The notes under the pieces are model-generated. The model made no database searches. It was not told the origin of the DNA and saw only the letters and a list, made by a program, of their open reading frames with translations. Position numbers and translations under genes: made by a program. A DNA stretch of 64,000 nucleotides from Cytauxzoon felis (taxonomy: Eukaryota; Apicomplexa; Aconoidasida; Piroplasmida; Theileriidae), in the NCBI GenBank assembly GCA_020283715.1, contig JAIQCW010000130.1, positions 1 to 64,000 on the forward strand. Reading direction: 5' to 3'. Positions 337 through 64,000 of the stretch are shown in pieces. The stretch's first letter is position 1; each line of letters opens with the position of its first letter.

Positions 337-3300
337 GACGTTGGAATGTAACTTCGTGTGGATAATAAATTATTTTTATTGTATTTGAAATCACGTACCC
401 GAAATCATTTTGTTGTAATCTTCTTCTGATATAGATTCGTTTCCAATCTTTATTAGATTTATGTATTAATCTATAGAGTGTGTGTGTTATGAGGATGTGA
501 ATAAAACTATACTTTTCTAAGAATGGGAATATTGTTAGATATGTTTGTAGATGTTTATTATTTATTAATCTTTTTCTATAACAATATATAATCCAACAGC
601 TATATGCATATTGACTATTAATAATAGCTCTATTATTTTTATATTTATCTTCAGGTAATGGTGGATTAATTTCATATTCTAAATCAATAGGTATATCACC
701 AATATGAAATTCATTTGGTATACATTCAAAACATTTATCAATTTTACCTAATTGTATTAATTTATCTAATTCCATTTGTTCTTTAATAGTAGTATTAGTA
801 TCAATACCAGTAATTTCTAATGGTTTAATATTTAATTCATCATCATACCATATTTTTTTTAGCATATTCTATAGTATTTAATGATAATTTCGATTCTATT
901 AATTCCCAATCACCATTAACATATTCATAAATACCTTTACCTAATATTTCATCATTATTAAAATTTTTCTTTATATATAATTTATTATATTTAAATGCTC
1001 TATTTATTTTATACCAATGTTTAACATCTATAATATTTGATATAATTGATGTTATATTCTCTTTACATTTTATTAAATTATCTACATGTTTTTCAATTTG
1101 ATACCAATTATTTAAATCACGTGATATAACTAATTCATTTTTCAATTCTGATACCCATTTTTTTATAATCTCACATAATACAAGTACAAATACATGATCT
1201 GTACTATTATAACACATTTTTATATTATATAATTCATCCCTTGTTATATTACATAAATCTATCTTTAATAACTCATCATATAATCTATCAAATACCATTA
1301 TCTGATGATACTCTAAATATATCACACTATTCATACCCAATGAATGAACCACATCACTCAATGATGGATTAATGAAATTTATAAAATTATCTGATGATGA
1401 AGATATAGTACTAATCTTCTTTCCACTCGAAGTTCCACCTGAGGTCATTCCACTAGGCGTGGAGCCTTCTCCACCTGAGGTCGTCTTGCAGACAGCTTCT
1501 CTATTTACATCCCCCTCCGCTTCCCTGAGATCAGCTGCGGGTCCCACCTGAGGTCCAGTACTACTCTTCATTCCACTCGTCGTGGTGGCTTTTCTATTTA
1601 CCTCACCTCGACTCCCATGGATCGTCTCGGATTCCACCTGAGGTCCAGTACTACTACCTCCACCTTCGCCACGATCTCCGGGAGTGGCATCACCCTTTAG
1701 GGATAGGTAATTGGAAGAGCTGACGGCAGGACCAACAGTGGTTGTAACCTCAGGTGGAAAATCATGGGGTTTTTTATCATTATGGTGTTTTTTATCCCCA
1801 GAAATCCCCATTACCCCACTTTCTCCACTTGAGGTCCAATAATTACCTTCATCTTTTTCATTCGAAGTTATATAACTACCTTCATCTCTTCCACTATGCG
1901 TGATACCTCTTTTATTTACTTCACCTTGAAGATCCCGTAGATTGCTTCCAGGTATTCCACTTCCGCCACGATCTCCGGGAGTGGCTCTACTCTTTAGAGA
2001 TAGGTAATTGGAAGAGCTGACGGCAGGACTGACCTCAGGTGGAGAAGGCACCACGCCGAGTGGGACAGTAGATGATAATGATTGGACCTCAGGTGGAAGA
2101 GATTTCGATTGTGTTTCGAGTGTATAATTATAGATGATATTTTTTTTAAATTGTATGATATGATTATGATTGAGATTGAATAATTGTAATTGTTGATTGA
2201 ATAGATTGTTATTGATGGTACCATATTTATGTATAAATTTGGCTATAAGTTGTGTTATATTATTATTAAAGAATATATAAAATTCATTTAATAGCCAAGA
2301 TTCATTAACATGTAATATAAATGATAATGCTTTAATAATTTCTAATGTATAACCAATATTATTAAATAAATTTTTAATATTATTTCTAGATTCTTGTAAT
2401 TGTATAGATTGTCTATATAATAATTCATTTTTATTTTCACCTATAAAATCATCTTTACTAAATATACCATATTTTTTTTTATATTAATATTTAATAATTT
2501 ACCATTATTATATTGTAATTTATTAGACCATTCATTAATATTATCTAATGTAGATGGTAATATAGGCATTTTTTTTAATTGTTCATATTCATAATCTAAT
2601 AATTCATCTTTATCTATTATATAATTTTGTATAGCATAATTTTTTGTAATTGATTGAAATTTATTTAATAAACTATATGTATGTATAGAAAATAATGTGA
2701 AGAATAGAGCGTTATTTTTATAATTTACATTTGTATTCGATTGTATAATACCTAATTCTTCATCTGTATCATTATATAATAATTTATAATCATCATATTC
2801 ATCTAATAATTCATTTGTTATTTCATTACCTAATACTTCATTACCTTCAGCAATAGGTAAATCTTCACTTAATGCTAATTCTGTACCTAATCTATATAAT
2901 ATTCTATATACTGATACACCACTAATTTCAATACATGAATTTATAATACTCCTTAATTCCATAATCAATTTATTCCATACACATAAATCTATACCATCAT
3001 CCATCATTAATAATAATCTACGAAATACCTTAAGACTACTTATAATCATAAATGATTCCAATCCACGTGAAGCATCCTCTATACCTACACATGCACTATT
3101 CAATAAACTACATACACCATCATATGTCATTATCTCAACACCACTCGAGGTTACATCACTAACTTCAGTTCCACCTTCCTTTCCCAATGCCGTTACACCC
3201 GAGGTCATTCCACTAGGCGTGGAGCCTTCTCTATTTACTTCCCCTTCCAGCTCCCGTAGATCGCTTCCAGGTATTCCACTTGAGGTTACATCCTTATATT

Positions 3301-5146
3301 CGTCTTGCAGACAGCTTCCTTTATTTATCTCACCTCGACTCCCATGAATCGTCTCGGATTCCACCTGATGTCCAGTACTACTACCTCGACCTTCGCCACG
3401 ATCTCCGGGAGTAGCATCACTCTTTAGAGATAGGTAATTGGAAGAGCTCTCTGCAAGAGGAAGAGAGTTGGATTGGACCTCAAGTGGAGTGGATTGGACC
3501 TCGAGTGGATCGGATTTCGTACAATATTCTGTAGAATTATGGATGATATGATTGAGTAGTAGTGGGAAGATATCATCATAATGTATATTATTGGGTGATT
3601 TTAAGATCCAGTATAATAATGAGAAGATGATTTGGTATATATTAAAGTTATTATATTGATTAAGGAATTTCAATTGATAATGGAATTTTGTTAGATAATT
3701 GATGATGAATTGTATTAAATAGCTAATTGTAGTACCAGTTAATATACTAATTATAGGTAATGTTATATATTTATATAAAAAATTATTAGATTTTAATCCT
3801 AAACCTATACCATATGAATCTTTCATTAATTCTACTAGTGAATTATTATATTTTAATGGTTCATTATACCATATTGAATATAAATTTAACATATCTTCAT
3901 CTGTTACTGGCCATTTTAAATTAGGATAACATTTTATAAAATTACTATATGTTTCTGCTTGTGCTGTTAATATATTTTCTACATCAGTTAATATTTCAGA
4001 ATCTAATATATTATTATTTATTTTTATATCTGATATTAAATCAATTTTTTTATATATTTTATTAATTACTATTAATATTTTTTTTGCACGTTTGGGGTTA
4101 TATATTAACATATTTTTTAAATGTATATAATATGGTAAACCTAAATAACCTCTTAATGCTGTATCTGTTAATATCCTTTCATCATCACCGTCACCAACAC
4201 CATTACAATCACCACCATCATCACCAACATCATTTAATATTGATTTAATATCAATTGGTTTCATAACATCACCAGTTAATCTCTTCCATATATTTAAAAT
4301 ACCAAATTCATATAATAAACCATTTATAAAATCATTTGGTGGACTTGGTCTACCTAATAATGTTCTTGATATTTGTACCAATGTTTTAAATGATATAGAT
4401 AAACCTGGTTCTATACCCATAATCTTACAAATCTCTTGTATACTATCATGTTTTTCTGATAATTTTTCAGCCTCTCTACCTAATTGTATTAATTTATCAC
4501 GAGGATTTGGATTCATTCCTTCTGGTCTATTATATAAATCCAATGGTAAATAATCAAACCAATCCTTTTCATCAGAAGAATTTGTTATATCATAAATGTT
4601 CATTGAATGTCTAATGAAGTTGGATGATTTAAAATCATAAAGTTTATGACATTTTATAAACAATAATGAATTATTAGAGAATATATTCTTAATATTATTA
4701 TTAGAAATAATATTTACATTAAAATGTATTGTATTAATGTCATTCTTTGAATATTTTGGGGTAATTTTGATGAAATTTCCATTATACGATGAATTTTCAT
4801 TCTTCTTACTTATATTGAAGAATTTTCTACTGAAATTATATAAAATTGTACCATATTTTAAATTTATACCAAATGATGGTAATATAATATGTTTTCTTTG
4901 AAATTTATAATCATTTTTCTTCAATTTATTATTATAATCAACATTTATAGAATTTAATTGATAAATATCCGACCTTCTCTTGAATTTATTACTAGAATGT
5001 GTAAAATTTCGGGATAAAATTTCCCATCTAGTAGGATATTTTATGTCTACAATATCAAATGAAGATTCTAAACATCTTACAATAAAAATATATAATAAAT
5101 TAACATATATATATATCAACACATATATTAAACGTGCATAACCCAT
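299..5146 (-). CDS. Large AT-rich protein of unknown function, frame broken twice
   Basis: I do not recognise this protein. Three consecutive minus-strand open frames appear to be one gene: 5146 to 2441 (901 codons), an open frame from about 2470 to 843, and 865 to 299. Each join falls in an A-run (about 2472-2480 and about 855-862, plus-strand numbering) followed by the same bases, TATGGTAT. Changing the run length by one would reconnect the frames, so sequencing error, real frameshift mutation or slippage are all possible. The N-terminus has a hydrophobic stretch (residues 6-25) followed by a basic, Asn-rich region, which could be a signal or bipartite organelle-targeting leader. The chain is rich in Asn, Ile and Lys. 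Two repeat copies (R3, R2) lie within it in frame and a third (R1) sits at its end. Confidence 0.5.
1425..2107 (-). repeat. Modular palindromic repeat, copy R2 (exonic, compound)
   Basis: This is the longest copy in the window. It lies in frame inside the unknown gene at 299-5146. Reading on the minus strand, it starts with two PPEV modules and [21 protein letters not shown], then GSNLRDLQGEVN, a diverged spacer (about 1760-1900), then a second [12 protein letters not shown] module, [33 protein letters not shown] and a final STPSG/TSSG block. Two full units side by side suggest a tandem or nested insertion. Confidence 0.85.
3148..3513 (-). repeat. Modular palindromic repeat, copy R3 (exonic)
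   Basis: The copy is in frame within the first long segment of the unknown gene, about residues 544-666. It opens with two PLEV boxes and [21 protein letters not shown], continues with SETIHGSRGEINK and CLQDE, and ends with [14 protein letters not shown] and STPSG. The frame stays open through all modules and returns to AT-rich sequence on both sides. Confidence 0.85.
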
Positions 5147-5301
5147 AACTTAGCAACTTTAAGTCGCCATTACTATAATATACAATGTAACTCTACACAT
5201 CTATCAACATAACCACACCAATAATAGGGTAATTTATATTCTCATTCTTAATAACAAATCTTCCATAAAATTTATTACTATTCTTAATCATCCTATAATC
5301 A

Positions 5302-12859: not shown

Positions 12860-13658
12860 TTAATTAAACACACTCAATATATTTTTAAGATTATTAATAA
12901 TTGCATTTTCATTATTTACGTGGTTTTCGTAGCTTTGCAGAGCCTTTGCACGTTCATTCTCGGCATTGTATACCTGTGGAACATCATTTGCAGATTTTCA
13001 AGTTGATAGAACATACCAGAGCTTCTTTTTTTAAACGCATAGCGGTCATTGCTTTATGCCTTGACCCGCTCATAACATAACCGATACGTTCGAAATTTTC
13101 AATTTGTTCACTAGTTAATCCAACTTCACCTCTCCTAGGTATACGTTTACCTTCTTGCACATACTGAGCTATGGCATCACCCTCGCCCGGGAGTAACTCA
13201 TTACCGTATCGTACCCTCTTGTTCAATGACTTTATCATTTGTAATGGTCTGGGACCATATTCTTCATCTGATGTATCGTCTCCATCGGATGTATTTTCAT
13301 TCGTCCTATCACTACCTTTCACTCCACTCGCCGTGGTGGCTTCTCTATTTACTTCCCCCTCCAGCTCACGTATATGACTTTTCGGTTCTTCGTGACAATC
13401 TTCGGGAGTGGCTTTACTCTTTAGAGATAGGTAATTAGGAGAGATCTCTGCAGGGCCACTACTAGTAGCAGAGTCATTAGACATATAGGTGGGTAACGGC
13501 TCAGACGCGTTATTCGTTCGACCTTTACTATACTTTTCTAGATAATTTTTATATACATTTGGGCTTGAAGTATTTGACGAGGTATATATGTGATGGGTTT
13601 TTAATTCTACTCTCATACGCTTATTCATGCGATCAATTAGCCATTTATCCTCGTACAT
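12860..13658 (-). CDS. NKAP: NKAP family protein (spliceosome-associated), with an in-frame repeat
   Basis: Two exons, 13658-13017 and 12973-12860, give about 251 residues. The C-terminal half is the NKAP domain: LLPGEGDAIAQYVQEGKRIP, RRGEVGLTSEQIENFE and GYVMSGSRH, ending in a basic/Asn tail. In animals and plants NKAP works in pre-mRNA splicing and transcriptional repression. The N-terminal region is low complexity and carries a repeat copy in frame at about residues 63-113. The start ATG at 13658 is the only upstream Met in frame. The insertion lies outside the conserved domain, so function may be unaffected. Confidence 0.88.
13320..13470 (-). repeat. Modular palindromic repeat, copy R6 (exonic, in NKAP)
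   Basis: In-frame copy in the variable N-terminal part of NKAP. It reads [18 protein letters not shown], a diverged junction, then HIRELEGEVNREATTASG. Relative to other copies it has substitutions in the GDRG segment (here EDCHE), which suggests age. Confidence 0.85.
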
Positions 13659-13762
13659 TATGAATGGCCTATTGAGGTGTTAAACGCGGGGCATTGGATG
13701 TGTATATTACAAGAGTAAACGATGTAGAAAATATCATGAAATAAATTTACAATGTTAAAATA

Positions 13763-16498
13763 TTAAATATCATCATATTGATTAAATTTGTGGAAGTAAT
13801 TTGTGAATGTGTTCCGGGTGAAAAGATCTGGTGGATAACGATCGATTGTGGATTTAGTGAAAGTGGTAATGTTATACTGTAAAATCATACCATTTGTTTC
13901 TTTACTATAAATCAGTGGATAGTAATCGTAATTTGTAGGTTTTGGTAAATCTTTTGGGATATTCTCAATAGCGATGTATAAATCATCACCTCTCGGGTGT
14001 AATCGCACATTTACATTCGATAATGACATTATTTTCTTCAAAATAACCTTCGTCTTATTATCTGGTCCTGTTATATCAATCGAATCCAATTTGTAATCGT
14101 CAGATAATTGCCAATTTATATAATATTCTATCACCGAGTAATACTGTTTCATCAATATGCAACCCTCACGTTTCATACCCAAACCCATATCCAAAGATAG
14201 GCCACGCAATGCTGTTTCTTCGAGGAGCATCTCAGAGTCATTTCCTTTTCCTGAGGTCTTAACCTTACCACGATCTCTGGGAGTGGCTATACTCTTTTGA
14301 GATGGATAATTGGAAGAGCTCTCTACAAGAGGAAAAGGGTCAGATGTATCGCTTGCGCCACTTATTTTAAAATCGTACAATTTTGTGGATTTATACCAAC
14401 GCTCTACATTCAATACACGTATCTTTCCCTTCACCTCCGACGTTTCTTCCTTTTTCACCACCTTGGATTCCTTAGGGTAGTAGAGGTTGATCATTCGGGT
14501 AAAATTGTATCTAGAATCGGGTACAATGATCTCTCCATTGTATAGAATGTCACCAATCTTGTACTTGTATGGTTGATTTTTAATTCTGTAAAATTTATAG
14601 TCACCATCGGTGATGATTGACACCATGTCGTGACCTTTCGTTAAGTCCACGCTTATAGGCATCTTATCCACTATACTATACCTTGCGATACCATCTCTAG
14701 ACTGGATCTGATAGACGTCGGTTGTGCACTCATTGACATCACAGGAGACGATAATAAAATGATAGGTGAATTTGTTCAAATATATAGTCCTTGATGTCAG
14801 CTGTGGATCCTGAGGTACGACAATATTACCATTGAACGTCACATTGCCAATAGTCTTTGTAATTATATTCCTCACATCAAACTTGAGGTAATCACCCAAG
14901 TCTACAATGGCCAAGTGCTCGTTTGGTAGGAATTTATTAATCTCAAGGGTTATAAAATCCCTTCCGTTTTGTATATAAATGGGTTTGTTCTCATCAAAAA
15001 TAGGGGTGCACATAGTGTACTTTGTATAAATACGTCTACCATCCGATGTTAAACCGGAGGCCACCATCTCGTAACCATTGTTCGAAATATTGAGTTCCAG
15101 GACGTTATAACGATTAGGCTCAACAACAACATCTCCGCACTTTATAGTACCAATTTTATTGTAAAAACTCCCACTAGAAATATTGTAGTAACCATCATAG
15201 CTCCTAATAACATTGATATCCTTGGTAGAACGTGTTAGCGTCTCGATCTTAATCATCAATGGTTTGCTCTTATATATGTTGAAATTTTCACCATTTGACT
15301 TGTAAATGATGTGTCTAAACTCGCCATTACTCAAGATGTCATCGATAATTATCAGGTCACTTTCTCTAGTCACGACCCTTTGGTAGAGGCCCTCGACGAC
15401 GTCTATATATTTTCCATTATACAAGACTTTCCCAATAGTATGAAGAGAACCATGTCCATTTGATATAAAAAACCTTATTTTATTCTCACTACGATCAACA
15501 GATATAAATTCACGTGACTTTACAGAATTTAAATCAAGGGTTATATACTTGCGATTGACTTCTATGTAATCTCCACTGCCCTTAGACATAAATACAGCAA
15601 CACTAGTTCTCTCTGAGCCAAAGTGTTTATTATATACAGTTAAAAAGGTACAATTATCTTTGCGATCAATTTTCACAGATAAACAACGCGTCAAAACATC
15701 AGAGAAAATAATCGAATTTCCATCGACTACATCTACAATACTGGTAGAGTGCCCGCAGCCGTCATAGAATATACAGTCTTTTCCACAGGAAACTGCAACA
15801 TCAGAATATCTACTTGGATCTTGTGAGACATCGAGAGTGATGCAATCACTCTTTAATCGATATTTACCACCATTTATGGGTACTAATGTCAATTTAAATT
15901 CATCACCAATGGATGGAAGCGTAGTAACTGTCAGTCCATCCACAGACTTTGTTATCGTACGCTCAAATACATCTACACCATCAATCAAAATTTCAGATTT
16001 ACATTTTATTGCACCAATGACTTCACAATCTTTCAATTGAAACTTCAATGACACTTCCGTATCATTTATAATCAAGTCAGAGCACAAATCAACATCTACG
16101 GCTTTGAAATGTACACGTTCATATCTATCTTCACGTTCCGATGACACCTTCATGTATCGTTCGCGTACCGGTAAACTACCATTTTTAGTATAAACATGAA
16201 TAGATTCTGAAAAATCAGCGGAATCATTCTTGATTATACACACCCTGCGATCATAATTACCGGGGGTACCAGGTGACTTTGTGATGACGAGATTTCCGTC
16301 AACCACATCACCTATACATTTATTAGTATCGTTCTTACCATTATTCAATGCGATTTCAACTATATTACCAGATATTGTCCTTATAAATTTATCTTCTTGT
16401 GCTGAAGAAATATCCAACACCTCATAATCACTACAAAATGTGTATACAAAACCCGGAACAAATAAAACAAAAATTGAAATCGCTAAATACGATTTCAT
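13763..16498 (-). CDS. Secreted protein with tandem beta-rich repeats
   Basis: Single exon, 911 codons, ATG at 16498. A clear signal peptide (residues 1-20, hydrophobic ILVLFVPG core) is followed by about eight to ten diverged units of roughly 70-80 residues. Each unit has a strand pattern of the type IGDILYNGEIIVP, then a hydrophobic strand, a loop and VDL or LDL. I see no C-terminal membrane segment or GPI signal. The organisation recalls Theileria secreted proteins with FAINT/DUF529 repeats, but I cannot confirm that domain from the residues. Repeat R7 is inserted in frame at about residues 719-744. Likely exported or surface-exposed; function unknown. Confidence 0.6.
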   Translation of the reverse strand: MKSYLAISIFVLFVPGFVYTFCSDYEVLDISSAQEDKFIRTISGNIVEIALNNGKNDTNKCIGDVVDGNLVITKSPGTPGNYDRRVCIIKNDSADFSESIHVYTKNGSLPVRERYMKVSSEREDRYERVHFKAVDVDLCSDLIINDTEVSLKFQLKDCEVIGAIKCKSEILIDGVDVFERTITKSVDGLTVTTLPSIGDEFKLTLVPINGGKYRLKSDCITLDVSQDPSRYSDVAVSCGKDCIFYDGCGHSTSIVDVVDGNSIIFSDVLTRCLSVKIDRKDNCTFLTVYNKHFGSERTSVAVFMSKGSGDYIEVNRKYITLDLNSVKSREFISVDRSENKIRFFISNGHGSLHTIGKVLYNGKYIDVVEGLYQRVVTRESDLIIIDDILSNGEFRHIIYKSNGENFNIYKSKPLMIKIETLTRSTKDINVIRSYDGYYNISSGSFYNKIGTIKCGDVVVEPNRYNVLELNISNNGYEMVASGLTSDGRRIYTKYTMCTPIFDENKPIYIQNGRDFITLEINKFLPNEHLAIVDLGDYLKFDVRNIITKTIGNVTFNGNIVVPQDPQLTSRTIYLNKFTYHFIIVSCDVNECTTDVYQIQSRDGIARYSIVDKMPISVDLTKGHDMVSIITDGDYKFYRIKNQPYKYKIGDILYNGEIIVPDSRYNFTRMINLYYPKESKVVKKEETSEVKGKIRVLNVERWYKSTKLYDFKISGASDTSDPFPLVESSSNYPSQKSIATPRDRGKVKTSGKGNDSEMLLEETALRGLSLDMGLGMKREGCILMKQYYSVIEYYINWQLSDDYKLDSIDITGPDNKTKVILKKIMSLSNVNVRLHPRGDDLYIAIENIPKDLPKPTNYDYYPLIYSKETNGMILQYNITTFTKSTIDRYPPDLFTRNTFTNYFHKFNQYDDI
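14266..14340 (-). repeat. Modular palindromic repeat, copy R7 (exonic, minimal)
   Basis: The shortest exonic copy, about 75 bp. It holds only the [21 protein letters not shown] module inside the secreted repeat protein. It shows that a single module can exist without the flanking arms. Confidence 0.8.
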
Positions 16499-16677
16499 TC
16501 TAGTTAAAATTAGTCAACATTATTCATATTCTGGAATAATATCCGCATGCATTACATAGTATGTTGAGCTATACAACTCACGGTCCCCATCACAAATTTG
16601 AATGAAATAAGAAAACAGATGGAGAAACAAATAATGATCATACATTCCAGTAAATAATGGTTATTAAAACGGATATT

Positions 16678-20620: not shown

Positions 20621-23600
20621 TTATTCTTCAGCCTCAGGTTCAGCTTCTACTTCTTTTTCTTCCTCTTCAACATTGTCTGGATTTTGGGCCTCCTCTTGTT
20701 GCTTTGGTTCTTCTTCCTTAGGTGGAGGGGTAGGTATAGAATTCTTCTTGTCTTTACAGAATTTTTGTATATCTTGACTAATTAACTTCAACTGTTCACG
20801 TATTTGATCCATTGTAAATAATGGTTGACTATATTTAGGATTTTTCGATTCACGTTCATATGCTTCCCTTACTTGACCTTCTAGATCCAATAAACGTTTA
20901 GCAAACGTTAAACGTTCATCTGATGTTGCTCCATACCATCTAGGATCGTCTTCACAACAGAAATTATATTCTTCTTGTAATTTTGAGTAAAATGATTCTA
21001 AATATGATGATTTATCATTATAGATATTATATAATTCCTCTATATTCTTCCAATCATCAAAAACTTTATCAAATGATTCCTGCAATACCTCCAATGATGC
21101 ACCAGAATTCATATATAACCAGTCCTGCCATTTGTCAACATCCTGTAATAACTGGTCAACAGTATCAGGTTTTATAAATTCATGATGTGAAGTTTGTATC
21201 TTATCACGGACACTATATATAAACGTCTCAAAATCATTCAATACACGAAGTCTTTGACTCTCATTCAAGTCATTCTTTAAATACTCCTTCTCTAGAGCAG
21301 ATAATAAATCTAAATCAACACAATGAGAAGGTAACACAGTAATATTACAATTATCTACCGAAGATGTGAACGATCCGAATTCATCAAATCCACATCTCAA
21401 CACATATTCCTTAGGCTCCTCTCCTGCAGGAAGTTCAGTAACAACTTTAGATACTTGATATTGACCTAATGAATCCACATTATTAACATCTCTAGGATCA
21501 CCCATAGATACAAATACAGTACATGGCAATTCTAACCCCAAGCTCAGATTATAAGTCTCCATCTTTAATGAATTCGGTGATGCTAACTCAGTATAATTCA
21601 ATGAAGATCTATAATAATAATAATGAATTGAAGTAGGTAATAATGTTATAATTATATGATTTCAGGTTGCATGAAGATAAACAACCTGAGGTTATTTCCT
21701 TGTCCTGCAGACAGCTCTCCACCTGAGGTCCAATCCACATATGTTCCACTAGGCGTGGAGCCTTCTTCCAATTATCTATCTCTAAAGAGTAGAGCCACTC
21801 CCGGAGATCGTGGCGAAGAATCCGAGACGATCCATGGGAGTCGAGGGGAGGTAAATAGAGAGGCCACCACGGCGAGTGGAAAGACCTCAAGTGGAGAGCT
21901 GACGGCAGGACGACCTACGGTAGAGGTAACATCAGGTAGAATAAATATAATAACGTGATCGTTGTTGTGGAGATAAGTACAAGACAATAAAAGAAATAGT
22001 GAATTGTGATCTGGAAATGATATAAAACTTACAATTCTTCGGAGTTGAAAGGTCCTAGGCCGGAGAGTAGTAGGATATTTAGTGGTTTACCCATCTTTTC
22101 AACTACATTGTATTTTCTGACCATATAGTGCTTGCTTGATAATGCAGCCTGAGTATTGTCAAATAAAAATTATATCAACGTACATGTAATACACATCCTC
22201 TAGCAATGCATTCATCAGCATTTAGAGTCCTGCTAAGTGGCTTATTGAAAACTTGGGATATCAAATTCTGAACGCACGGGATCCTGGTTATACCACCAGT
22301 CACCTCAACGGAAAACAACGACTCCAATGGTCTACCAGATCTTGCTATACCCTCATTCAACAATGCAGACAACATTGGTAAAAACTCAGCGGAACATATG
22401 GCTTCAAATTCATCGCGCTTTATCAAACCTATATAATTATATGTATATAAATTTAGATGAAGAGCTGATAAGCCTTAACCCAACAAATAATGTAATCAAA
22501 ACCTCTATCATCATACAACAAACCTTGTAAATCATAATCTTCCATTAAGCACTCAGCGGAGTAACCGGACTCTGAGTTGGCGGATAGTACTCTTTTAGTT
22601 TTGGTAGCCACCGCTTCAACTTTAAGTCTGGTTTTGGGATTCTTGAGTGGATCGCAGCCATATTTTTTATTGAATGATGATGCCATATGATTCATAAGAA
22701 TTGCATCTATATTTCGACCGCCCAAATCACGCCTGGAAACTTCAGATAGAATTTCACAGTGACTTGCATAGAAATCTACAATGGCTACAGTGGCATGAGA
22801 ATGTCCCACCATCACAAGTCCAACAGTTGTCGGTGTCTCATCGTTGAGTTGTTTCAATCTGTACATTCCATAATCCATTGCCATTGCTACACCCTCACTA
22901 ATAACCCTCAAGCACTTCAATCCAGCTGCACGAGCTGCCGAACATAAGTGAGACTTTTGTGCCTCAGTAAACCACGAAGGATGAGATAAAACGACCTCTC
23001 TACATTGTGCACCAGTATAACGCTCAGCCATTTCAGTCAAAAATGACAAGTAACCAACAGTCACCGATAAGGCACTCTGCATCTTGACTTCCGAACCAAC
23101 TTTCACCTAATAAAGGAAAATGAAATGTATTATGTAATGTTATCCTATGAGTCCGGGAGGTGGAAATTTGTCGAAAAGAGTATAAAAATAGAGAGAGGGA
23201 TAATGAATATCATCTCAATCTCATAAGAAGATAAAGTTGAAGAACAAACATAGGATATAAACACAATATCTCCTCCGTAAACTTACTTCATAAACAACTT
23301 CATTCTTTTCATCCACTTTCAGAGGTGTTGATGAGAAAAATTGGTCGAGGTCGGTGACGTGGTCATACTGGCCTTTAGTTCCGATAAGATTTAGGAATCC
23401 ACGACAAGTACTTTTGAAATTGGATACAATTTGAGATTGAGCTTGATCACCGAAAATGCGTTGCAGCGAAGTGTAGGTAAGGCATGTTCTGAAGGTAAAA
23501 TCATCAATGATGGATCGATATATATAAACTTACGGGGTATATCTTTGTGATGTATCATTTAGTACAATATCAATAGCTCCTCTAGAAATTGTGGCAACGG

Positions 23601-35738: not shown

Positions 35739-35811
35739 GATCCATTAGCTCAGTGGTTAGAGCGTTGGTCTTATGAGCCAAATGTCGTGGGTTCGACCCC
35801 CACATGGATCA
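35739..35811 (+). tRNA. tRNA-Ile(UAU)
   Basis: A complete cloverleaf can be folded: a 7-bp acceptor stem GATCCAT/ATGGATC, D-stem GCTC/GAGC, anticodon stem TTGGT/GCCAA, T-stem GTGGG/CCCAC with TTCGACC loop, and A73 at 35811. The anticodon loop CTTATGA puts TAT at positions 34-36, reading AUA. Position 37 is G, unusual after U36, where t6A37 is normal. A TTTT just downstream (35812-35815) fits Pol III termination. No intron. Confidence 0.9.
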
Positions 35812-35887: not shown

Positions 35888-38504
35888 CTATCTACGGTTA
35901 GTTTTACCCAATGTGCGCTTCCCACTATACATATGCTTGGGTAACTTAATATTGATTGACCTATCGTGCTCCCTATATACACCTTTAGGTAATTTAACAC
36001 GTTTCTTCGGCTTAATATATGGTACACTTTTACCCTGAGTTTCTCTTTGTTTAGATTTGGCCATCTCTAATTTCGATTGAATACTATCGATAGGCATTGG
36101 ATCAATCATGTTTAATATACTTCTCCTCTTTTCACCCTTATTTCTAACCTTCTTTATACGTATAGTCTCATTTAGTATAGGTCCTACTCGTTTCTTCTTC
36201 AATCCACGTTCCAAACGCCATTGCCTTATCCTAGAATGTAATTCATTTTCACGTCTAACCAAGTCCTCCCATTGTTCCTATAGTAATCATATATATAAAC
36301 TGTAAATACTCACATCTTCAATATTGGGTTGTAATTGCTCCAATAATAATTCTTCCTCCTTCTCCAATAATTTTAAACGTTCCTCAACACCAGGATAAGC
36401 ATAATCTATGACGTTCCTACCATTATAAAATTCCGGCACCTCGTCATATTTCCACTCGTCATTCGCCAATATATGATTCTCTGAATAAATATATATAGAT
36501 GAATTAATATAATGACTGATGCGTTGTCCAGTCAAACTTGTCTCTGTCTTGCAGACAACTCTCCACATGTCTAATCCACCGTAGGTCGTCTTGCAGACAG
36601 CTTCTTCTAATTACCTATCTCTAAAGAGTAGAGCCACTCCCAGAGATCGTGGCGGTGAGATGGTAGTTATTGGACCTCAGGTGGAGACCTCAAGTGGAAT
36701 ACGCGTAGCTGATCTCAGGGAGTGGCTCTACTCTTTAGAGATAGGTAATTAGAAGAAGGTGTCTGCAAGACGAAGATAAGGACCTCAGGTGGAACGTAGA
36801 GTGGAAAGAGAATGAATGGGCGGTTGGATTGGAATACAAAGTTTACACTTACTTCTAAGATCGATGGAGTATACTCCTGGCCCTCCGTGTAATAGTTCGA
36901 GGTCTTTTTCTGTAGATACTACAGTATCTTTAAGATCTTGTACAATTGTTGGTGGTCTGTTTTCATTAGTTTCAACATCGGTGATGTAACCTATCTTTTC
37001 TATTTTATCGGGTACTGCATCATTGAGTTTTACATTAAGCCTAGTATCCAAGAGGAGTTTACATGCCATAATCTTAGCATCATCTATACCTTCTCCGGTA
37101 AGAGCTGATGTTTTCATTATGGTGAGATTTGAAAATTTACTGTGAATGAGTTCCAAATTATCACCAGTAGATAGATCAATCTTATTTAAAACAATGAGTA
37201 TAGGCTTATTTTGAAATAATGGACTGATCGATTCGAACAGTTTAATCTGTTCCGCTATAGAATAGCCACAACTCTCACTAACATCAATGAAGAACATAAT
37301 AGTACAAAATATATGTGCCAAAGCTGTAATGGCCGTCATCTCAATGGTATTCCTCTCATCTAATGGATGATCCAATAACCCAGGGGTGTCAATTATCTGC
37401 CAACGAAGATAATTGTAATCAAAATGTCCAACATATAATGATTTAGTAGTAAAGGCATATGGTTGTACATCCACATTCGCCTTACTAACTTTATTCATAA
37501 AAGATGATTTACCAACGTTCGGATAACCCGTCAATAATATTGTACGAGTATACCTGAAGGGAAAAATATTTATTAAAAGCATAAATAATTAGTCAAATTA
37601 TATCTATCTAAGATCATACATGTAAGGTTCATCTTTTCCACTCGCCTCCACCTGAGGTTCAATACACGTCTGTTCCTCCTGCAGAGAGCTCTTCTATTTA
37701 CTTCCCCCTCCGCTTCCCTGAGATCAGCTACGGGTATTCCACTTGAGGTCCAACGACTATACTTAGGCCACGATCTCTGGGAGTGGCTCTACTCTTTAGA
37801 GATAGGTAATTGGAAGAGCTGACGGCAGGACCTCAGGTAGAGGCTAGTGGAAAAGTGGTGTACCCTCGGGTAAATATACAATAAGAATCAAGCAGATACA
37901 TTTAAACTTTGGTAGACTTACGGATTAATGGTTGGTAGTCTGGACATATGTTGCCTTACATCTTCGAGATATTGTAGTGATCCTTTTAGCCTCTTTAGTG
38001 CTTTACACATATGCCCTAATGCGGCCTTTTTAAGCATTTTACAGCGATAAAGTGAGTTTCCGTACTTCATTTGTCTGACGTACTCTTTAGCTATGCGATC
38101 TATAACTCTCATGATGGAGTTGCATTGTCCTAAGGCCAATTTGTAATGGTCGCGATCATAAAGTACATTACATAAATCAGCATAGAATGGATGGATATCC
38201 TAAATGGTTAATGGTTAAATTAAGAATTACTCACATTCAATTGAGGGAGCTGAGATAATATCCTCTGTAGACGGTCGTGACATGTTTGCTGACAGAATTT
38301 GACCTTCCTCATATAAAATTTACGTATCCTTGATATTTTGAACTGTTTATGTACCTCTGTTGGTGTTTTACGTTGTGTTTGTGAGAGTACTACATCTATA
38401 AGCTTTTTAGCGGTAGGGATAGTCGTGATACCCTAATATCAATGACAAGTGAATTTAAAATTCAAACTCACCTTGAAATTATACATTTGCGATTTATTAG
38501 CCAT
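35888..38504 (-). CDS. NOG1: NOG1 nucleolar GTPase (60S ribosome biogenesis)
   Basis: Exons 38504-38472, 38432-38235, 38199-37922, about 37554-36853, 36480-36314 and 36277-35888; about 589 residues. The N-terminal NOG1N helical domain is followed by the GTPase: [13 protein letters not shown] (G1), [10 protein letters not shown] (G3), NKIDLS (G4). The C-terminal NOGCT part has [15 protein letters not shown] and a Lys/Arg-rich end. It binds pre-60S particles in the nucleolus. Two introns (about 367 and 372 nt) contain repeats R16 and R15, the others are 34-40 nt. Confidence 0.95.
36542..36806. repeat. Modular palindromic repeat, copy R15 (NOG1 intron, inverted pair with chimeric core)
   Basis: Two half elements face each other. 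The left part, plus orientation, has CTTGCAGACAGC, CCTATCTCTAAAGAGTAG and GCCACTCCCAGAGATCG. The right part, minus orientation, has GGCTCTACTCTTTAGAGATAGG. Between them is a chimera, GTAGCTGATCTCAGGGAGTGGC (at about 36705-36726), that starts as the AADLRE-type module and continues as the reverse of the ATPRDRG module, switching at GATCTC.GGGAG. The two arms could form a stem of about 45 bp. Confidence 0.85.
37635..37850 (-). repeat. Modular palindromic repeat, copy R16 (NOG1 intron)
   Basis: Minus orientation. It contains [21 protein letters not shown] followed by a [21 protein letters not shown] module and a CTGCAGAGAGCTC arm, and it is bordered by CCACCTGAGGTTC on the left and GACCTCAGGTAG on the right. 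Confidence 0.85.
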
Positions 38505-41947: not shown

Positions 41948-44900
41948 TCTTGTGTAATAAAGCCATAATTTGATTCAAAGGCATCTTCAACTCCTCACAT
42001 AATTCTTGTGCTATAGAAATATAATTTTTAATCTCTTAACAATAAATACTTACATGATTTATGTTGTATACCCATACCAAATAAAATTACACCCTGTATA
42101 AATGGTAGAGTCAATTTCAAATAATCCATAAAATAAATGTATGATAACGTGGGTATCAAATCTGTCACTATAGTAAAGTCAGCCATCTGTTTCATATAAC
42201 GATTAATACGACTAAGATCATATTCCGTCTATAAAAATTTTTTAAAAAACATCTCAATGTGTAATCTTACCAATACAAATTTCATATACTGTATAGATAA
42301 TTCCTTATCGTCCGTAGATGTGTAGCTACCCGATGTATTTATAGTCAAAGTCTTTTCCTTGTATTTCCAATCACCTCCACCCGAGGTTACAATCTTGTCT
42401 TCCTCTTGCAGAGAGCCTTCTCTTTTTACTTCCCCCTTCGCTTCCCTGAGATCAGCTGCGGGTTCCACTCGAGGTCTAGTACTAACTCCACCTTTTCCAC
42501 TAGGCGTGGTACCTTCTCTTTTTACTTCCCCCTTCGCTTCCCTGAGATCAGCTACGGGTTCCACTCGAGGTCCAGTACTACACTTCATTCCACTTGAGGT
42601 TACATCCAACACATCCTTAGCACCATCTTCCATCATTCCCATGATGGATGATCCATCACTAACTTCAACACTACCTTCACCACGATCTCCGGGAGTGGCT
42701 TTACCCCTTGGGGATAGGTAATTAGAAGAGCTGACGGCAGGAGAACGCGAGGTTGTAACCTCAGGTGGATCGGCGAGTGGAACAGAGTTGGATTGTACAT
42801 CAGTTGTGTTATTATCTTTATTTGTATATGATTTATGATGATTGATGAGTGAGAGTAGTAATATGGCGGGTAGATTGCGCCAGCATGAGCTAGCGAGTGT
42901 GAGTAATCTTTTTTTATAATCTTTAGTGAATGAATCTAGCCAATTGTTATTTTTAATTAGATTGAGTATCATAATGCATGAAAATTCACCGGTTGTTTCA
43001 TTGGGTACTTGTCTTGTATATATAGTTTGGAATCCTAATCTTGTCCAGAATCTTACTAGTGATGATGTAATTGAGAAACTGGTACCTATATAATCGATGG
43101 TAGATTTATTATTTGTAATCAATTCTTCATCATTAGATTCTACATCTATTAATAATGATTTAGATGTAGTTTCATTGATATTAGTTATAATATTGATATT
43201 ATTTATTAATCTATTTATAGTTTCAGTACCATATCCTAATTTTTGTAATGGTTGTTGTACAGCTATACGTATAATACGTATACCATTTAATTCAGAGAAG
43301 TTATCAGTACAGAAATGTTGTGTTATAGTCCATGGTATCATATCACCAGATGGTTTAATACCACGTTTAATATTATTATATGCTATATTTTTATTAATAT
43401 TACCTTCAAATGCAATATGTAATACAGATATAATAATAATATCATTAATAGATTGTTTATCATTAGGTATAATAGCTAATATTAATAATTTATGTGAAGG
43501 TGCATCAGATAATAATAATAAATCATCAGGTGTATTACGATAATGTGATGATGTAAGTATATAAATAATTTTATTTAATATTAATTCAGTATAATTATTA
43601 TATGAAAAAAGTATATCTCTATTAATAAGAAAAAATTTACATTTAGATGGTATAATATTATTAGTTATATATAATAATTTATTATTAAATTCATTTGTTT
43701 CTATATAATTAAGACATAATAATTTATTAAGCCATAATTCTATAGAATCATTTTTATTATAACGTATTGGTTCATTTAATTTTATATCTATTAATAAATT
43801 TGTATTAAATTTTTTTAATTTATCTATTAATTTTAATGATATTGATCTACCTGTACCTTCATAACCACCTATAGTAGATGATATAATTATAATACCACGA
43901 TTACATAACATTTCTAATTTTGGTAATGATATTGATGCAGCTTCTTCTATAATTAATATATCCCAAAATTGATTCTTAATAAATTCTATATTTATATCAT
44001 TAGATGATATAAATTTTACATAACAATTTCTTTTATTTATTATATTTATTATACTTGTATATGATTCATATTTTATTTTATTATAACCTACATGTTCATA
44101 TATACCTAATTTATTTAAACCAATCTCTATAAATTTAAATAATGTTATTACATTCTCTATATTTGGTGCTATTATTATTATATTACGATAATCTAAATTT
44201 AATGCAGCAGATAAGAATATTCCTATTGTTGCTGATTTACCACGTCCACGATCACTAAATATAGTAACAATATTAACATGTTTTATATTATCTATATCAA
44301 TTAATAATGTTTGTAATTTTATTAATGCTTTTAATTGACTATATGTAATAGCTAATGATGATAATTTCTTTAATATATCATAATCATTATTAATATATTC
44401 ATCTGTACCTAATTTATTCAATAATTTTATTAATTTACGCCTAGAATCCTTCTTTTTATTAATACTTAAACCACCTTTACAAATAGGTAATATATTCAAT
44501 TCATCATCAACAACCATCATATTATTACCATCAGATAATGATAAAACAAATCTACGAACAAATCTAGGCTCAGCCTTATCATAACCAAAAGAACATAATT
44601 TACCATGAATATCCATAGTAATGTTATATAAATCCTGTAATGATTCCATAGTACGCAATAATATACAAATCAAACCACCACCCTCAACAGTCTCTATTGT
44701 ACGACAAAGAACATTAGGGGTCAATGCCTCAAAATCCTATATTAAAAATATTTTAATGAAATTATGTAAAAGTAGATGTCACACTTGAGGTGCAATACAA
44801 CTATTATTCCACTAGGCGTGGCGCCTCTTCTATTTACTTCCCCTTCCAGCTCCCGTAGATCGCTTCCAGGTTTCACTTGAGGTTATTTAATAATCTCTCT

Positions 44901-56459: not shown

Positions 56460-59400
56460 TTAATTGAGTGTAATTTTCTCGACGTTCTCGGGTATATCTT
56501 CTAACATTGTTTGACTAACGATACCGCAGACGTGTTTCCATTCATCTGTTGACTTTATACGGTTTGTAAAGTTGTCCAATGAGTCCAGCTCTGCATTCAT
56601 AATTTCTCTACGCTGCCTTGATCTAAATTCTTCAGGTTCTCCTCTTAAAATACGCTCTAATGATAACAATCCTTTAGCATCTGGCCTTAAAGGCTTGTCA
56701 ATTGATCCAATTTTGCTGACTTTATGCCTTGTAAACTCGCGTTTATTAAATTCCTTCTTCATATCCTCAAGAGACTTTGGAACATTTTTATACGCATCTA
56801 TTGTCTTTGTAAAATTTGGATCAGCATAAGACATGAAGATTACATGGCCAGTGCGCGTTATACGCGCGAACACACCGTAGGCACCCAAGGCCATCCTAAC
56901 TTGTTTCCATAAGTATGTGTTGTCTAGACAATGCAATGCCAACGAATCTTCACCTTTAACAACATCCTTACTTGTGAAGAGTTTTCCACCCATTACTACA
57001 TGATTTATACGTGTCGATGCTACAATAGCTTCATCCTTTTGGTCTGGGAGTCCGACGGACAAGACATCTTTCACCCAAGTGGGAATTTCATGAGGTAATT
57101 TAACTTCTTTTGTTTCTTTAATATTCAGTGATAAAGTATGGGAAGTCTCGAATGCAGAAGCTATAGATTTGTGCATCCATTTGTATTCTTCTTCCACCCA
57201 CGGCTCGACGATGCTGGGAGTGGCTGTTATATTTAGCGTCAAATGGTTAAGTTTGAGTAGCTTATTGCGTATAGCTATCAATTTCCCTTCGATTGATGTC
57301 CAATCTTGTTCGGCTCTCGGTAAAATCTCTTTTAGAACATCCAGTTGTTGATAACCATTGGATAGTTCTTCAGCGTAATCTGAGACCGAAAATGAACGCG
57401 CCAGGCGTTTCATAGCGAATGAATGACCACGCGTTATTATTGAGCGTTGTAAATTTGCAATGCTTCTCTTGATGGTCTCAATACCCTTCGACGCGTTTGA
57501 AAAGTTGCAATCTTTTAATAGCGTGTTAATTATAGTGAACATATCATTCTTCTTATCAGCCAATGCCTTTGTCCTTATAATCAAATAGCCCAAGCCATCA
57601 TTACATTCGGCATACCTTCCATCATTATATTTTGTCATGAACGACAGGTCAAAGTCCAATCCACCTAGATTCTGAGCAATAATATAACTCATCTCCTCAG
57701 AAGTTTTATCAGTCGTACCAGCCTCCTTTAACATTGCGGTGAATAACTTGAGGTATTTCAACTCATCAAGAGTCAATTCATGAAGTGATATAGCATAGTC
57801 AAGATATACAATGCCTTGAGATTCTATAGGGTGTACCAATAATTTCAATGTTGATTTTGGATCCAGTCCATCTCCAACCTCATAAAACTTCGTGGGAATT
57901 AATTCGTTCTCCTTATTAAGATCAGATATTTCCAACGTTGGAAAGGCCTCGAGAGTTTTTGGATCCACAGGCTCCTCGCGAGTCTTTTTGAAAATCTTAT
58001 ATTCATCTTCCAGCTTATCAACCTCTTGCCTCGTATAATGACCAACAGCATCAGTCAATTGGCCCTTTATCCTATTCATCATCTCTTTGTCATACAGGGA
58101 AGATTCTTTAGCTTCCATATGTATAACAGCATAGTCGGCATTATCCAGGAAATACCTCTTGATCAAATTACTAAAGTATCCAGAATATTTAGAGCGACTT
58201 TTTAACTCTGATAGAAGAGAGTCGAAGTACAAGAGACCCAATGGGTCTTTACCGTATAACATTTGGATATGAATTAAACCTAAAAGAGCCAAACCCTTTG
58301 GATATGATCCAGTATTCAATTCACGCAGTTGGAATTCCACCGTATTCATCGCCGCTTTAATCGCGTCATTTTTAAAACCATCGGCCGCTACACGGTTCAA
58401 CGTCTCGAAAACTACACTCTTGAATTTATCCTTTAGTTCAGAACCTAAAAATTATGGATAATAATAGAAAGAGAAAATCCCATAGCAAAAGTGGGGTAAT
58501 GACCTGACAGTTTCAAGAGGTAAATCCAAAGAATAAGTTACATACAAACTCACTCTCTAACATCAATGAAAGTTTATACATATTTCTATTGCATGGAGCA
58601 TACACCTGAGGTATTTCCACTATTGGTCTTGCAGAGAGCACTTCTCCACCTGAGGTCTTTTCCACGTCCTGCAGACAGCTTTTCTATTTACTTCCCCCTT
58701 CGCTTCCCATAGATCGCTTCCAGGTCCACTTGAGGTCCAATAATTACACTTCCGACACGATCTCCGGGAGTGGCTATACTCTTTAGAGATAGGTAATTGG
58801 GAGAGCTGTCTGCAGGACGACCTACGGTAGGGGTAACCTCGGGTGGAAAACAATACCTCACTTCGCCTAGTTATGTGAATTAAACTAACCATTTTTTACT
58901 CCTTCTATACCGATGGCAAATGTTGACTGACGAAAATAATCGACATATCCATCTCCAACGACTTTACTACCAATCTTCGAGTCAATTAGTGCTTTATAAA
59001 GTACACTTTCAGGTGTACCCATGAGCAGATGTTCAACAACCATTAATCCTATCTTATCAACAATGTCAATATTAAATCTGTTATCACTAGTATGAGGATC
59101 TAACAGCCATCCTATTAGTAGTATATCTTCGAGGTCGTTAGAGAGTGATCCATATGTTTGTTTCAAATCCAAGGGGACACCTTTATATTTTTCAAGTTCC
59201 AATAGTTTAATAGCACTATCAGGTGATGCTTTATGGGTAGAATTATCGATTTTACTATTCGATAGATATCCATCAATGAAATTTAATCTATTCTTAACAT
59301 CATCAGGGCCATAGAAACTGACTGTAACAGTAGAGGTTGAGTAGTAACGTTCATAGAAATCAACCAATTGGGGATAATCAAGTTTGACTATAAAATCTGG

Positions 59401-62267: not shown

Positions 62268-64000
62268 ATGGGTGAGGTATCAGATCGGTATTTTTATTGT
62301 ATCTGTGGCGGTATAAATGGAGTAGATGGTTATGATAGAGATCCTTTGGTATGTAAAACATGTAATCAGAACAGTCATAGGGAATGTACTCATTATAATG
62401 GTCCTGAGTGTGATTTTGAGTGTATGTTATGTAGAGTACAGTTATTAGATCCTTTTAATACAGTTCGGGAATTTTTATGGTATGGTTGTATGGGTAATAA
62501 GACTGAATCATTTATATTGGATGCATCTGATTTGGAGAAATGGCGTACAAAGTGTCAGGATGTATATATGGCATCGATACCATTGAATAAATCTATATTA
62601 AGACATGAATGGCCGAAAACAATGGAGTTGAGAGTGAATAGGGATATAGTACATGTAGTAAAGGAGCCATCATGGGAGCATAAAAGACGTGATAATCCTA
62701 TAAAGATTACATATGCAATAAGACCAGGTGATAATAAGATTGAGATAAATACAAAAACGTATAGTAATAATGATGGGCCATTATTTTTATTATAATTTGT
62801 GTATGTAAACAGATATCAGTGACTCGTATAATTGAGACTATTAAAAAAAAACGTACAATCCCATTGGAGGAATGTAAGAAACGTGTTTATAATATTATTA
62901 ATCGCAAAATAAATGAGGATGATGAAGTTTTTTGTATGGAAAGTACCCATAAAATCGAATTAAATTGCCCTGTGACTTTGGATAGAATTTCTATACCTAC
63001 AAGAGGTAGAAATTGTGAGCATTTACAATGTTTTGATCTTGAAGGGTATTTAAGAGTTATGGAAAAGACTGCAGCATTTAATATGAGATGGAAATGTCCT
63101 GAATGTCATTTAATTGTTAAACCATTTGATTTAGTTATTGATACATTCATAGAGGAATTATTAAAAGTTGTATCTCGTGATGTTTGTACTATTGAACTTG
63201 ACGAGGAATTGAATTATCATACCATTCATACAAAAGACGTTCATGAAAATACCGATGCTGTAAATGAAAACAAACGTCCATCTACCACTTCTTTAAATGA
63301 CAACACAATCGTAAGGACTACAATCTCAAAGCATAAAACAAACATCGAAAATAGTTTAATAGTCTTAGATTCTGATGATGATAACGAAAGTCAATCAATA
63401 TCTAATAACAATGAAGATAGCTCTACACTACCTGAGGTTACCTCTACCAATGGTCAAACATCTCTTCGTCCTGCAGACAGCTCTCCACCTGAGGTTACAA
63501 CCTTATCTTCCACTAGGCGTGGAGCCTCTTCCAATTACCTATCCCTGAAGGGTAGAGCCACTCCCGGAGATCGTGGCGGTGAAGGTAGAGGTAGTGATGG
63601 AAGTAGAGTTAAGGATAAGACCTCAAGTGGAAGTGGATTATCCGAGACGATCTACGGGAGTCGAGGTGAGGTAAATAGAGAAGCTGACGGCAGGAATGTA
63701 ACCTCAGGTGGACCCGTAGCTGATCTCCGGGAAGCGAAGGGGGTACTAAATAGAGGAGGCTGTCTGCAAGACAAGGAAAGGACCTCGAGTGGAAGAGCTG
63801 ACGGCAGGACCTCAGGTGGAGAGGCCACCACGGCAGTGGGAAAGGAGGTAGATGTAACCTCTGGTGGTAATAAATCCATTACTAATGGTGAGATTATTGT
63901 AATTGATTCCGATGATGAATTTATGGTTCCTTCATCTACAAGGACTACATGTGATGATAAAAAGAAGATATTATCTCAATTGGATGTGCGTTACAAGATA
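62268..64000 (+). CDS. PHD and SP-RING (PIAS/SIZ) SUMO E3 ligase, cut by window end
   Basis: Exon 1 is 62268-62763; exon 2 begins at 62820 (intron 56 nt, AG at 62818-62819) and is open to the window end. Order: an N-terminal PHD finger (CICGG, CKTCNQNSH, CMLC; residues 10-60), a PINIT-like region, then the SP-RING (LNCPVTLDRISIPTRG...CEHLQCFDL...WKCPEC). Two SUMO-interacting motifs follow, LIVLDSDDD before and IIVIDSDDE after a repeat insertion (R25) of about 145 codons. SIZ/PIAS proteins transfer SUMO in the nucleus; the PHD-first order is like plant SIZ1. Exon 2 stays open through the repeat. Confidence 0.9.
63418..63860 (+). repeat. Modular palindromic repeat, copy R25 (exonic, in SUMO ligase)
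   Basis: In frame on the plus strand: [95 protein letters not shown]. Arms are CCTGCAGACAGCTCT on the left and AGAGCTGACGGCAGG on the right. About 440 bp with no stop; the host reading resumes on both sides at acidic, Ser/Asp-rich sequence. Confidence 0.9.

Follow-up and report, generated by a model that had tools for sequence, protein, structure and literature searches.

What is the palindromic stretch at positions 21663-21945 of a Cytauxzoon felis contig (GenBank GCA_020283715.1, JAIQCW010000130.1; here C75), and how did it become dispersed? The window, i.e., the whole stretch of DNA analysed (64,000 nt, positions 1 to 64,000, forward strand), is part of this 148-kb contig in a genome of 8.62 Mb (181 contigs). 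The features discussed below are collected in Table 1.

Identity and copy number of the element

The palindromic modules do form a dispersed family, with more copies than first described. After removal of clusters with <24 masked bases, 43 clusters of enriched 10-mers were listed in 94 contiguous kb, and 27 of them begin within the window, in agreement with the at least 25 loci given in the earlier note. The element clusters cover ~12% of the 94 kb, and their modules have ~50% GC (34% in the background). Genome-wide, the hairpin GCCACTCCCNGAGATCGTGGC has 2,826 matches with at most two mismatches (1,397 and 1,429 on the two strands); exact counts on both strands are 217 for CCTGCAGACAGCTCT, 814 for CCACTAGGCGTGG and 346 for GAGCCACTCCCGGAGATCGTGG. 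The reversed sequences, which served as controls, had no genome-wide match in any of the four cases; the proposed family of dispersed modules is confirmed. As the 94 kb contain 33 copies of the hairpin GCCACTCCCNGAGATCGTGGC versus 30.8 expected, this region is typical of the genome. A known RNA family was rejected: at gathering score, Rfam had a single match in the window, to a tRNA, and none for the element.

Table 1. Element copies, their modules and neighbouring features in the window (positions of the window)
Feature	Position	Strand	Remark
Two in-frame copies in ORF 846-2483	1419..2098	-	
In-frame copy in ORF 2444-5149	2996..3509	-	
Degenerate in-frame copy in ORF 12987-13679	13323..13433	-	
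Degenerate in-frame copy in ORF 13766-16513	14268..14324	-	
Inferred intron (GTAAGT...TATAG) of HSP70/HSP110-like gene	21609..22032	-	example copy inside, antisense
Example copy	21663..21945	+	~54% GC in module-rich part 21684-21911
Open frame +0 across example copy	21671..21958	+	95 aa from ATG, terminal TGA; antisense to gene; not claimed as gene
Outer module CCTGCAGACAGCTCT	21704..21718	+	internal small palindrome CTG/CAG
Module CCACCTGAGGTC	21719..21730	+	
Module CCACTAGGCGTGG	21746..21758	+	hairpin CCAC/GTGG
Core, 53 nt	21764..21816	+	17 residues read in frame +0
Hairpin CTCTAAAGAG	21780..21789	+	stem covaries among copies
Hairpin GCCAC-TCCCGGAGATC-GTGGC	21794..21814	+	conserved 11-nt loop
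Second hairpin GAC-GATCCATGGGA-GTC	21826..21842	+	same loop inverted, different stem
Module CCACGGCGAGTGG	21867..21879	+	
Module GACCTCAAGTGG	21883..21894	+	
Outer module AGAGCTGACGGCAGG	21895..21909	+	
tRNA gene	35739..35811	+	sole Rfam match in window
In-frame copy in NAT10, ORF 42232-44736	42376..42784	-	homology resumes past 42-nt GT-AG intron 42229-42270
Non-coding copy in intron of falcilysin/PreP-like M16 protease gene	58603..58848	-	sense
In-frame copy in ORF 62774-64291	63430..63861	+	ORF extends beyond window

Modular structure and conserved hairpins

In the example copy, the arms 21702-21730 and 21883-21911 (29 nt) are 90% complementary and the arms 21744-21766 and 21859-21881 (23 nt) 78% complementary. 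The stretch 21650-21950 folds with -122.5 kcal/mol (z -7.8), and none of 100 dinucleotide shuffles folded as well. Read on the readable strand, a full copy begins with one or more CCACCTGAGGT modules, followed by a B module (CTTGCAGACAGCT, CCTGCCGTCAGCT, CCACTCGCCGTGG or CCACTAGGCGTGG), CTCTTCCAATTACCTAT and a short hairpin (CTCTAAAGAG and its variants). The GCCAC/GTGGC hairpin, a spacer and the ACCTCAAGTGG module form the middle, and the 3' part consists of at least one hairpin carrying the same loop inverted (GATCTNNGGGA), GGGGAAGTAAATAGA, a B' module and ACCTCAGGTGG. The order of modules is constant, and B modules are exchanged between copies.

The earlier note had taken nested inverted arms to be the plan of the element. 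The arms do pair in the example copy; as a rule for the family, however, this does not hold, and the nested form is one arrangement among many. Among 109 typed elements (25 of 134 were dropped), the module class upstream of the core equals the downstream class in 70 (Fisher p = 0.010), which weakens a strict nested inverted repeat as the unit. Although arms tend to agree in class, modules change places freely, and what stays constant is the local hairpins.

A survey of 323 loops of the form GATYTMHGGGA on both strands gave 99 distinct flank pairs. Stem positions 1, 2 and 3 next to the loop GATCTNNGGGA are complementary in 91, 92 and 92 of them, compared with means of 66, 54 and 43 and maxima of 77, 65 and 53 in the shuffled control. 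Pairing falls off at positions 4 and 5, with 62 and 48 complementary pairs against shuffled maxima of 60 and 48. Since the copies are related, these shuffles measure pairing rather than independent events or probabilities. The stems around the loop include CAC/GTG, GCT/AGC, AGC/GCT, GAC/GTC, GAT/ATC, AGT/ACT and AAC/GTT. Covariation is also seen at two of the four pairs of the CTCTAAAGAG hairpin, which are complementary in 119 of 122 (67 expected) and 121 of 122 copies (89 expected), and in coding copies the covarying stem is paired in 42 of 42. Considered by itself, the GCCAC/GTGGC stem does not exceed expectation at its five pairs, and the covariation therefore rests on the comparison of module types. 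Folding of 20 sequences of each kind gave median z values of -3.5 for coding copies (11 below -3), -4.0 for non-coding copies (13) and -0.5 for random stretches (1). Hairpin stems thus covary around a fixed 11-nt loop, and some stems of the element do so in coding copies as well.

Copies inside open reading frames

Ten long ORFs in the 94 kb pass straight through elements, giving the same peptide each time. The earlier note had missed that many copies are open frames within genes. In a survey of 50 non-redundant segments (264,732 nt), a 53-nt profile found 134 cores; as most segments were selected for containing the element, densities are biased, but this selection has no bearing on frames. 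In frame +0, 46 of the 134 cores lie in a stop-free stretch of at least 600 nt; the five remaining frames each have no such core. With a threshold of 900 nt the counts are 42 and 0. Open-stretch lengths are bimodal, with 88 cores below 550 nt and 46 at 693 nt or more. The 46 cores are distributed over 36 ORFs, one to three per host ORF. In the 94 kb, which were taken regardless of the element, 11 of 35 cores lie in long frames and 24 outside.

The other five frames have stops within the element (median open length 51-117 nt); insertion in any of them would truncate the host, and selection would leave one placement in six. Codon differences in the core are distributed alike between changing and silent in coding (134:53) and other copies (220:87), and the peptide therefore shows no constraint beyond openness. 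It fits a tolerated filler better than a working domain. Differences at the second codon position are, in raw counts, less frequent in coding copies (41 of 212) than in the others (105 of 370). Spacers in the segments L012, L007 and L041 (e.g., C75:89980-90625) contain other recurring in-frame modules (VNPEEQ / LPGGTKNVNPEER, ESGVMGISGDKKHHN and DGSSIMGMMEDGAKDVLDV) that may represent separate element families.

Host proteins and their orthologues

A Pfam scan of 30 of the 36 host ORFs gave 12 with families above the cut-off, 2 with matches below it only and 16 with none. The families of the 12 are unrelated to each other: CPSF_A, Spb1_C with DUF3381, ABC_tran, HEAT, PAP2_C, Peptidase_C48, Gpi16, Helicase_C, Beta-lactamase with ABC1, WD40, MMR_HSR1 and Ribosomal_S9. 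Two more host ORFs were scanned, of which NAT10 adds a family and ORF 13766-16513 has none. The unrelated hosts include NAT10, transportin, Spb1, a NOG1-like GTPase, a helicase and an Ulp1-like protease. A PDB search with the CPSF_A-like host gave no match. ORF 13766-16513 (-) is large and has repeated ILYNGEIIVP-like motifs, with a degenerate element near its end; the protein may resemble FAINT domains and belong to a secreted piroplasm-specific family. The 990-aa frame L031:3-2972 (+) combines the end of an ABC1 kinase-like domain with a beta-lactamase-type domain and carries two cores.

Both flanks of the insert are host-derived in NAT10, transportin, the NOG1-like GTPase and Spb1. The NAT10 protein is similar to its piroplasm orthologues up to the element and again, in frame, beyond it. 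The best named matches are from Theileria orientalis and T. annulata (53-62% identity; two further matches at 59-61%), and in this between-species comparison the insert is missing from 8 aligned piroplasm orthologues. In transportin both flanks match PDB 5yvg_A, and the insert is missing from all five aligned piroplasm orthologues, the comparison again being between species (best named matches in Theileria, 44-47%). These orthologues establish presence and absence between species, not movement within one.

In the NOG1-like GTPase (L007:496-1848 (-)), 2e87_A is matched by the P-loop and by switch I, which are separated by 305 residues, element copies included, instead of 4. Such an insert is hard to square with function unless it is tolerated or spliced out, or the gene is dead; either the protein is impaired, perhaps, or the insert is taken out by an unseen route. 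A second NOG1-type GTPase ORF, uninterrupted, is present in the window at 36788-37582 (-).

Non-coding copies

Not all copies are coding. The example copy probably is a non-coding one, antisense in the predicted intron of an HSP70/HSP110-like gene. The HSP70 domain (Pfam) of this gene lies within 22456-23106; the 3' ORF 20624-21601, with no match in Pfam or PDB, probably belongs to the same gene, judging from its frame and the splice sites. The two halves of the falcilysin/PreP-like gene, whose intron also holds a copy, match 2fge_A at 21-369 and 385-962. The flanks were long enough in 74 other copies, of which 15 are open for 90 nt upstream and 150 nt downstream and 16 in neither direction. 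As Theileria introns are mostly near 55-80 bp (PMC2612703), introns that exceed 400 bp and hold an element are unusual.

Possible traces of spread

A genome search with PF00078 (RVT_1) found one locus, L072 (G000:C56:73000-75400), which is telomerase-like and reads as telomerase from its motifs; this search found no other reverse transcriptase in the genome. Retroposition by a resident retroelement was rejected, as the sole reverse transcriptase found is telomerase-like. PF00665 (rve), PF13358 (DDE_3) and the prokaryotic-type PF01797 (Y1_Tnp) had no genome match; the searches for transposase or integrase domains covered these three families only, and control genomes gave matches. No target-site duplication was seen in four inspected copy pairs, which include no same-species empty site. 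Within this range, the earlier observation that neither a transposase nor terminal direct repeats are visible still stands.

Related copies tend to be neighbours: 11 of 35 cores have their best match no more than 6 kb away, compared with a mean of 3.65 after shuffling (p = 0.0055). Furthermore, a block of 326 nt, beginning at TCCACCTGAGG and ending at GACGGCAGGA, is 100% identical at C75:63484-63809 and 65113-65438 (-), inverted and in two adjacent different genes; it is a recent copying event. The other of the two longest shared blocks, with 99.7% identity over 329 nt, extends into host flank and is thus a duplication or gene conversion, not an insertion.

Origin of the in-frame copies

We consider it likely that palindromic elements of ~200-500 bp, built of exchangeable hairpin modules, have spread through this piroplasm nuclear genome and behave like Rickettsia palindromic elements (RPE). 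Mobility of the element and translation of the inserts are predicted from sequence. Copies would insert in both strands, into introns, intergenic regions and exons; those in exons would survive only with an open frame in phase and would then be translated as a linker of ~60-170 residues. Spread would proceed, less surely, through DNA copying that uses the hairpins, be it by gene conversion among copies, by template switching or by repair primed from a hairpin. Two reasons would account for the persistence of the hairpins: their part in driving or guiding this copying, and the correction of imperfect palindromes that intrastrand templating allows. Hairpin-guided copying or gene conversion is favoured, since the domains searched gave no dedicated enzyme, similar copies tend to be neighbours and one 326-nt block is identical in two adjacent genes, though we are less sure of it than of the insertion pattern. 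The chances seem evenly balanced that a transposase-free element propagated by hairpins is the main dispersed repeat of this genome, palindromic and at the same time open in one frame, with translated inserts in ~900 proteins; this number is an extrapolation from the 11 of 35 cores in long frames to the 2,826 copies.

A conventional foldback or MITE-type DNA transposon, with its enzyme lost or unrecognised and the coding frame as a by-product, would account for inverted modules at both ends, the lack of an enzyme in the copies and the very high copy number. It is nevertheless doubtful, as the ends are mosaics of modules rather than fixed, the inspected pairs show no target-site duplication and PF00665 and PF13358, the two families considered here, have no genome match; a 64-genome apicomplexan survey also reports no class II transposons (PMC9141347). 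If, on the other hand, the copies in ORFs were introner-like elements that are spliced out, the insert would not be translated and 305 residues in a GTPase would be harmless. Some copies do sit in introns (in the falcilysin-like and HSP70-like genes), the A modules contain CTGAG|GT and CTCAG|GT, which resemble exon borders, and the alveolate Amoebophrya has hairpin introners with non-canonical splice sites (PMC7789003). Introns, however, need neither an open nor a shared frame, so that the in-frame copies speak against a spliced reading: all 46 copies in long ORFs are in frame +0 and none elsewhere, and the host domains on either side of the insert are in the same frame. The left border is also poor in canonical 5' splice words: within 190 nt left of 45 coding cores (one of 46 was dropped for too little flank), GTAAG occurs in 2, GTATG in 2 and GTGAG in 0, compared with 5, 2 and 1 for the reversed words and 5, 13 and 6 for the complements. 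Short GT-AG introns elsewhere look ordinary (42 nt in NAT10). Ordinary introns are thus disfavoured by the kept frame and the rarity of these words, and we regard the introner-like origin as improbable.

The insert could also be a useful protein part, a translated linker gained by exon or repeat exchange, the DNA palindromes being secondary. Recurrence of the same peptide frame across many proteins would suit this explanation, as would the in-core stops, which are found in none of the 46 coding cores versus 4 of the 88 others. The equal ratios of changing to silent differences do not, nor do the stem changes, which preserve pairing although the residues encoded by both arms differ (SLKS, SLKG, SPRG, PVNG). 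Besides, about two thirds of the cores (24 of 35) lie outside long ORFs, and one is antisense in an intron; a useful linker is therefore quite unlikely to be what has been selected. That the modules are fragments of one repeated gene family, a possibility raised in the earlier note, has become barely credible. Piroplasms do possess large gene families and the element does encode a peptide, but the hosts span many unrelated families and the element part of one host matched no protein at E ≤0.01 among 496 candidates (lengths 0.55-1.75 of 710 aa, in a database apparently without proteins of the same genome). That search, with its 496 candidates and E of 0.01, likewise gave no relatives of the element elsewhere. 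Insertion of a small, hairpin-rich element with one open frame remains the reading that we prefer.

Comparison with known systems

MITEs and foldback transposons are likewise short, have inverted repeats and a high copy number and lack an enzyme; the C. felis element differs in having no fixed ends and no target-site duplication in the pairs inspected. Introners of Amoebophrya and others resemble it as dispersed inverted-repeat hairpins in alveolate genes without an enzyme, as far as described in PMC7789003. Introners are themselves introns, whereas the in-gene copies of C. felis keep one open frame with few canonical 5' splice words, and its intronic copies sit inside longer introns. PARCELs are coding sequences with dyad symmetry that also occur in eukaryotic microbes; according to PMC2996958, they are tandem 25-residue repeats in proteins without assigned function, whereas here single or few inserts occur in conserved housekeeping proteins. 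Tandem arrays of 25 residues are absent from the host ORFs, which carry one to three cores each. Byps of Magnusiomyces mitochondria form hairpins and are mobile. Like the present element, they interrupt protein genes at numerous sites, 81 in all (PMC5009743). The ribosome skips byps, which break the reading frame, whereas here the frame is kept open.

Theileria genomes were earlier described as having no transposable elements (PMC2612703). In the 64-genome apicomplexan survey (PMC9141347), LINE-like elements are reported for T. equi and some Babesia and no transposable elements for C. felis, T. parva, T. annulata and T. orientalis. As described there, this survey discarded MITE candidates and repeat models that match annotated exons, and an element like the present one would be lost in that filtering. 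In the open-access literature, with subscription papers mostly outside its scope, we found no description of palindromic elements that lie in frame within the nuclear genes of a eukaryote; PMC2996958 and PMC10969869 describe them from a few intracellular bacteria and one archaeon.

The closest likeness is to RPE, and the analogy proposed in the earlier note has in fact gained strength, since copies sit in frame inside genes. RPE are ~150 bp long and encode a conserved peptide, with 44 copies in R. conorii, nearly half of them inside ORFs (PMC10969869); RPE-like elements are described from Wolbachia and M. jannaschii (Methanocaldococcus) in PMC2996958. The C. felis element shares with them its small size and palindromic nature, its in-frame position within unrelated protein genes, its conserved peptide and the lack of an enzyme of its own. 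It differs in being modular, with swappable hairpins on covarying stems, and in having thousands of copies rather than tens, such as the 44 of R. conorii, in a eukaryotic nuclear genome with introns. It agrees with RPE, as reviews describe them, in the defining features compared, namely palindromic DNA in many dispersed copies, one conserved frame inside unrelated genes and orthologues that lack the insert, and can be read as a eukaryotic counterpart of RPE in kind; descent from RPE is not claimed. If this is true, the RPE way of adding protein sequence would also be a eukaryotic process. A counterpart with thousands of copies would show selfish DNA reshaping a proteome directly, inside exons, and its copy number would suffice to work out how such elements move, how their translation is tolerated and for what reason hairpins and an open frame coexist in one sequence.
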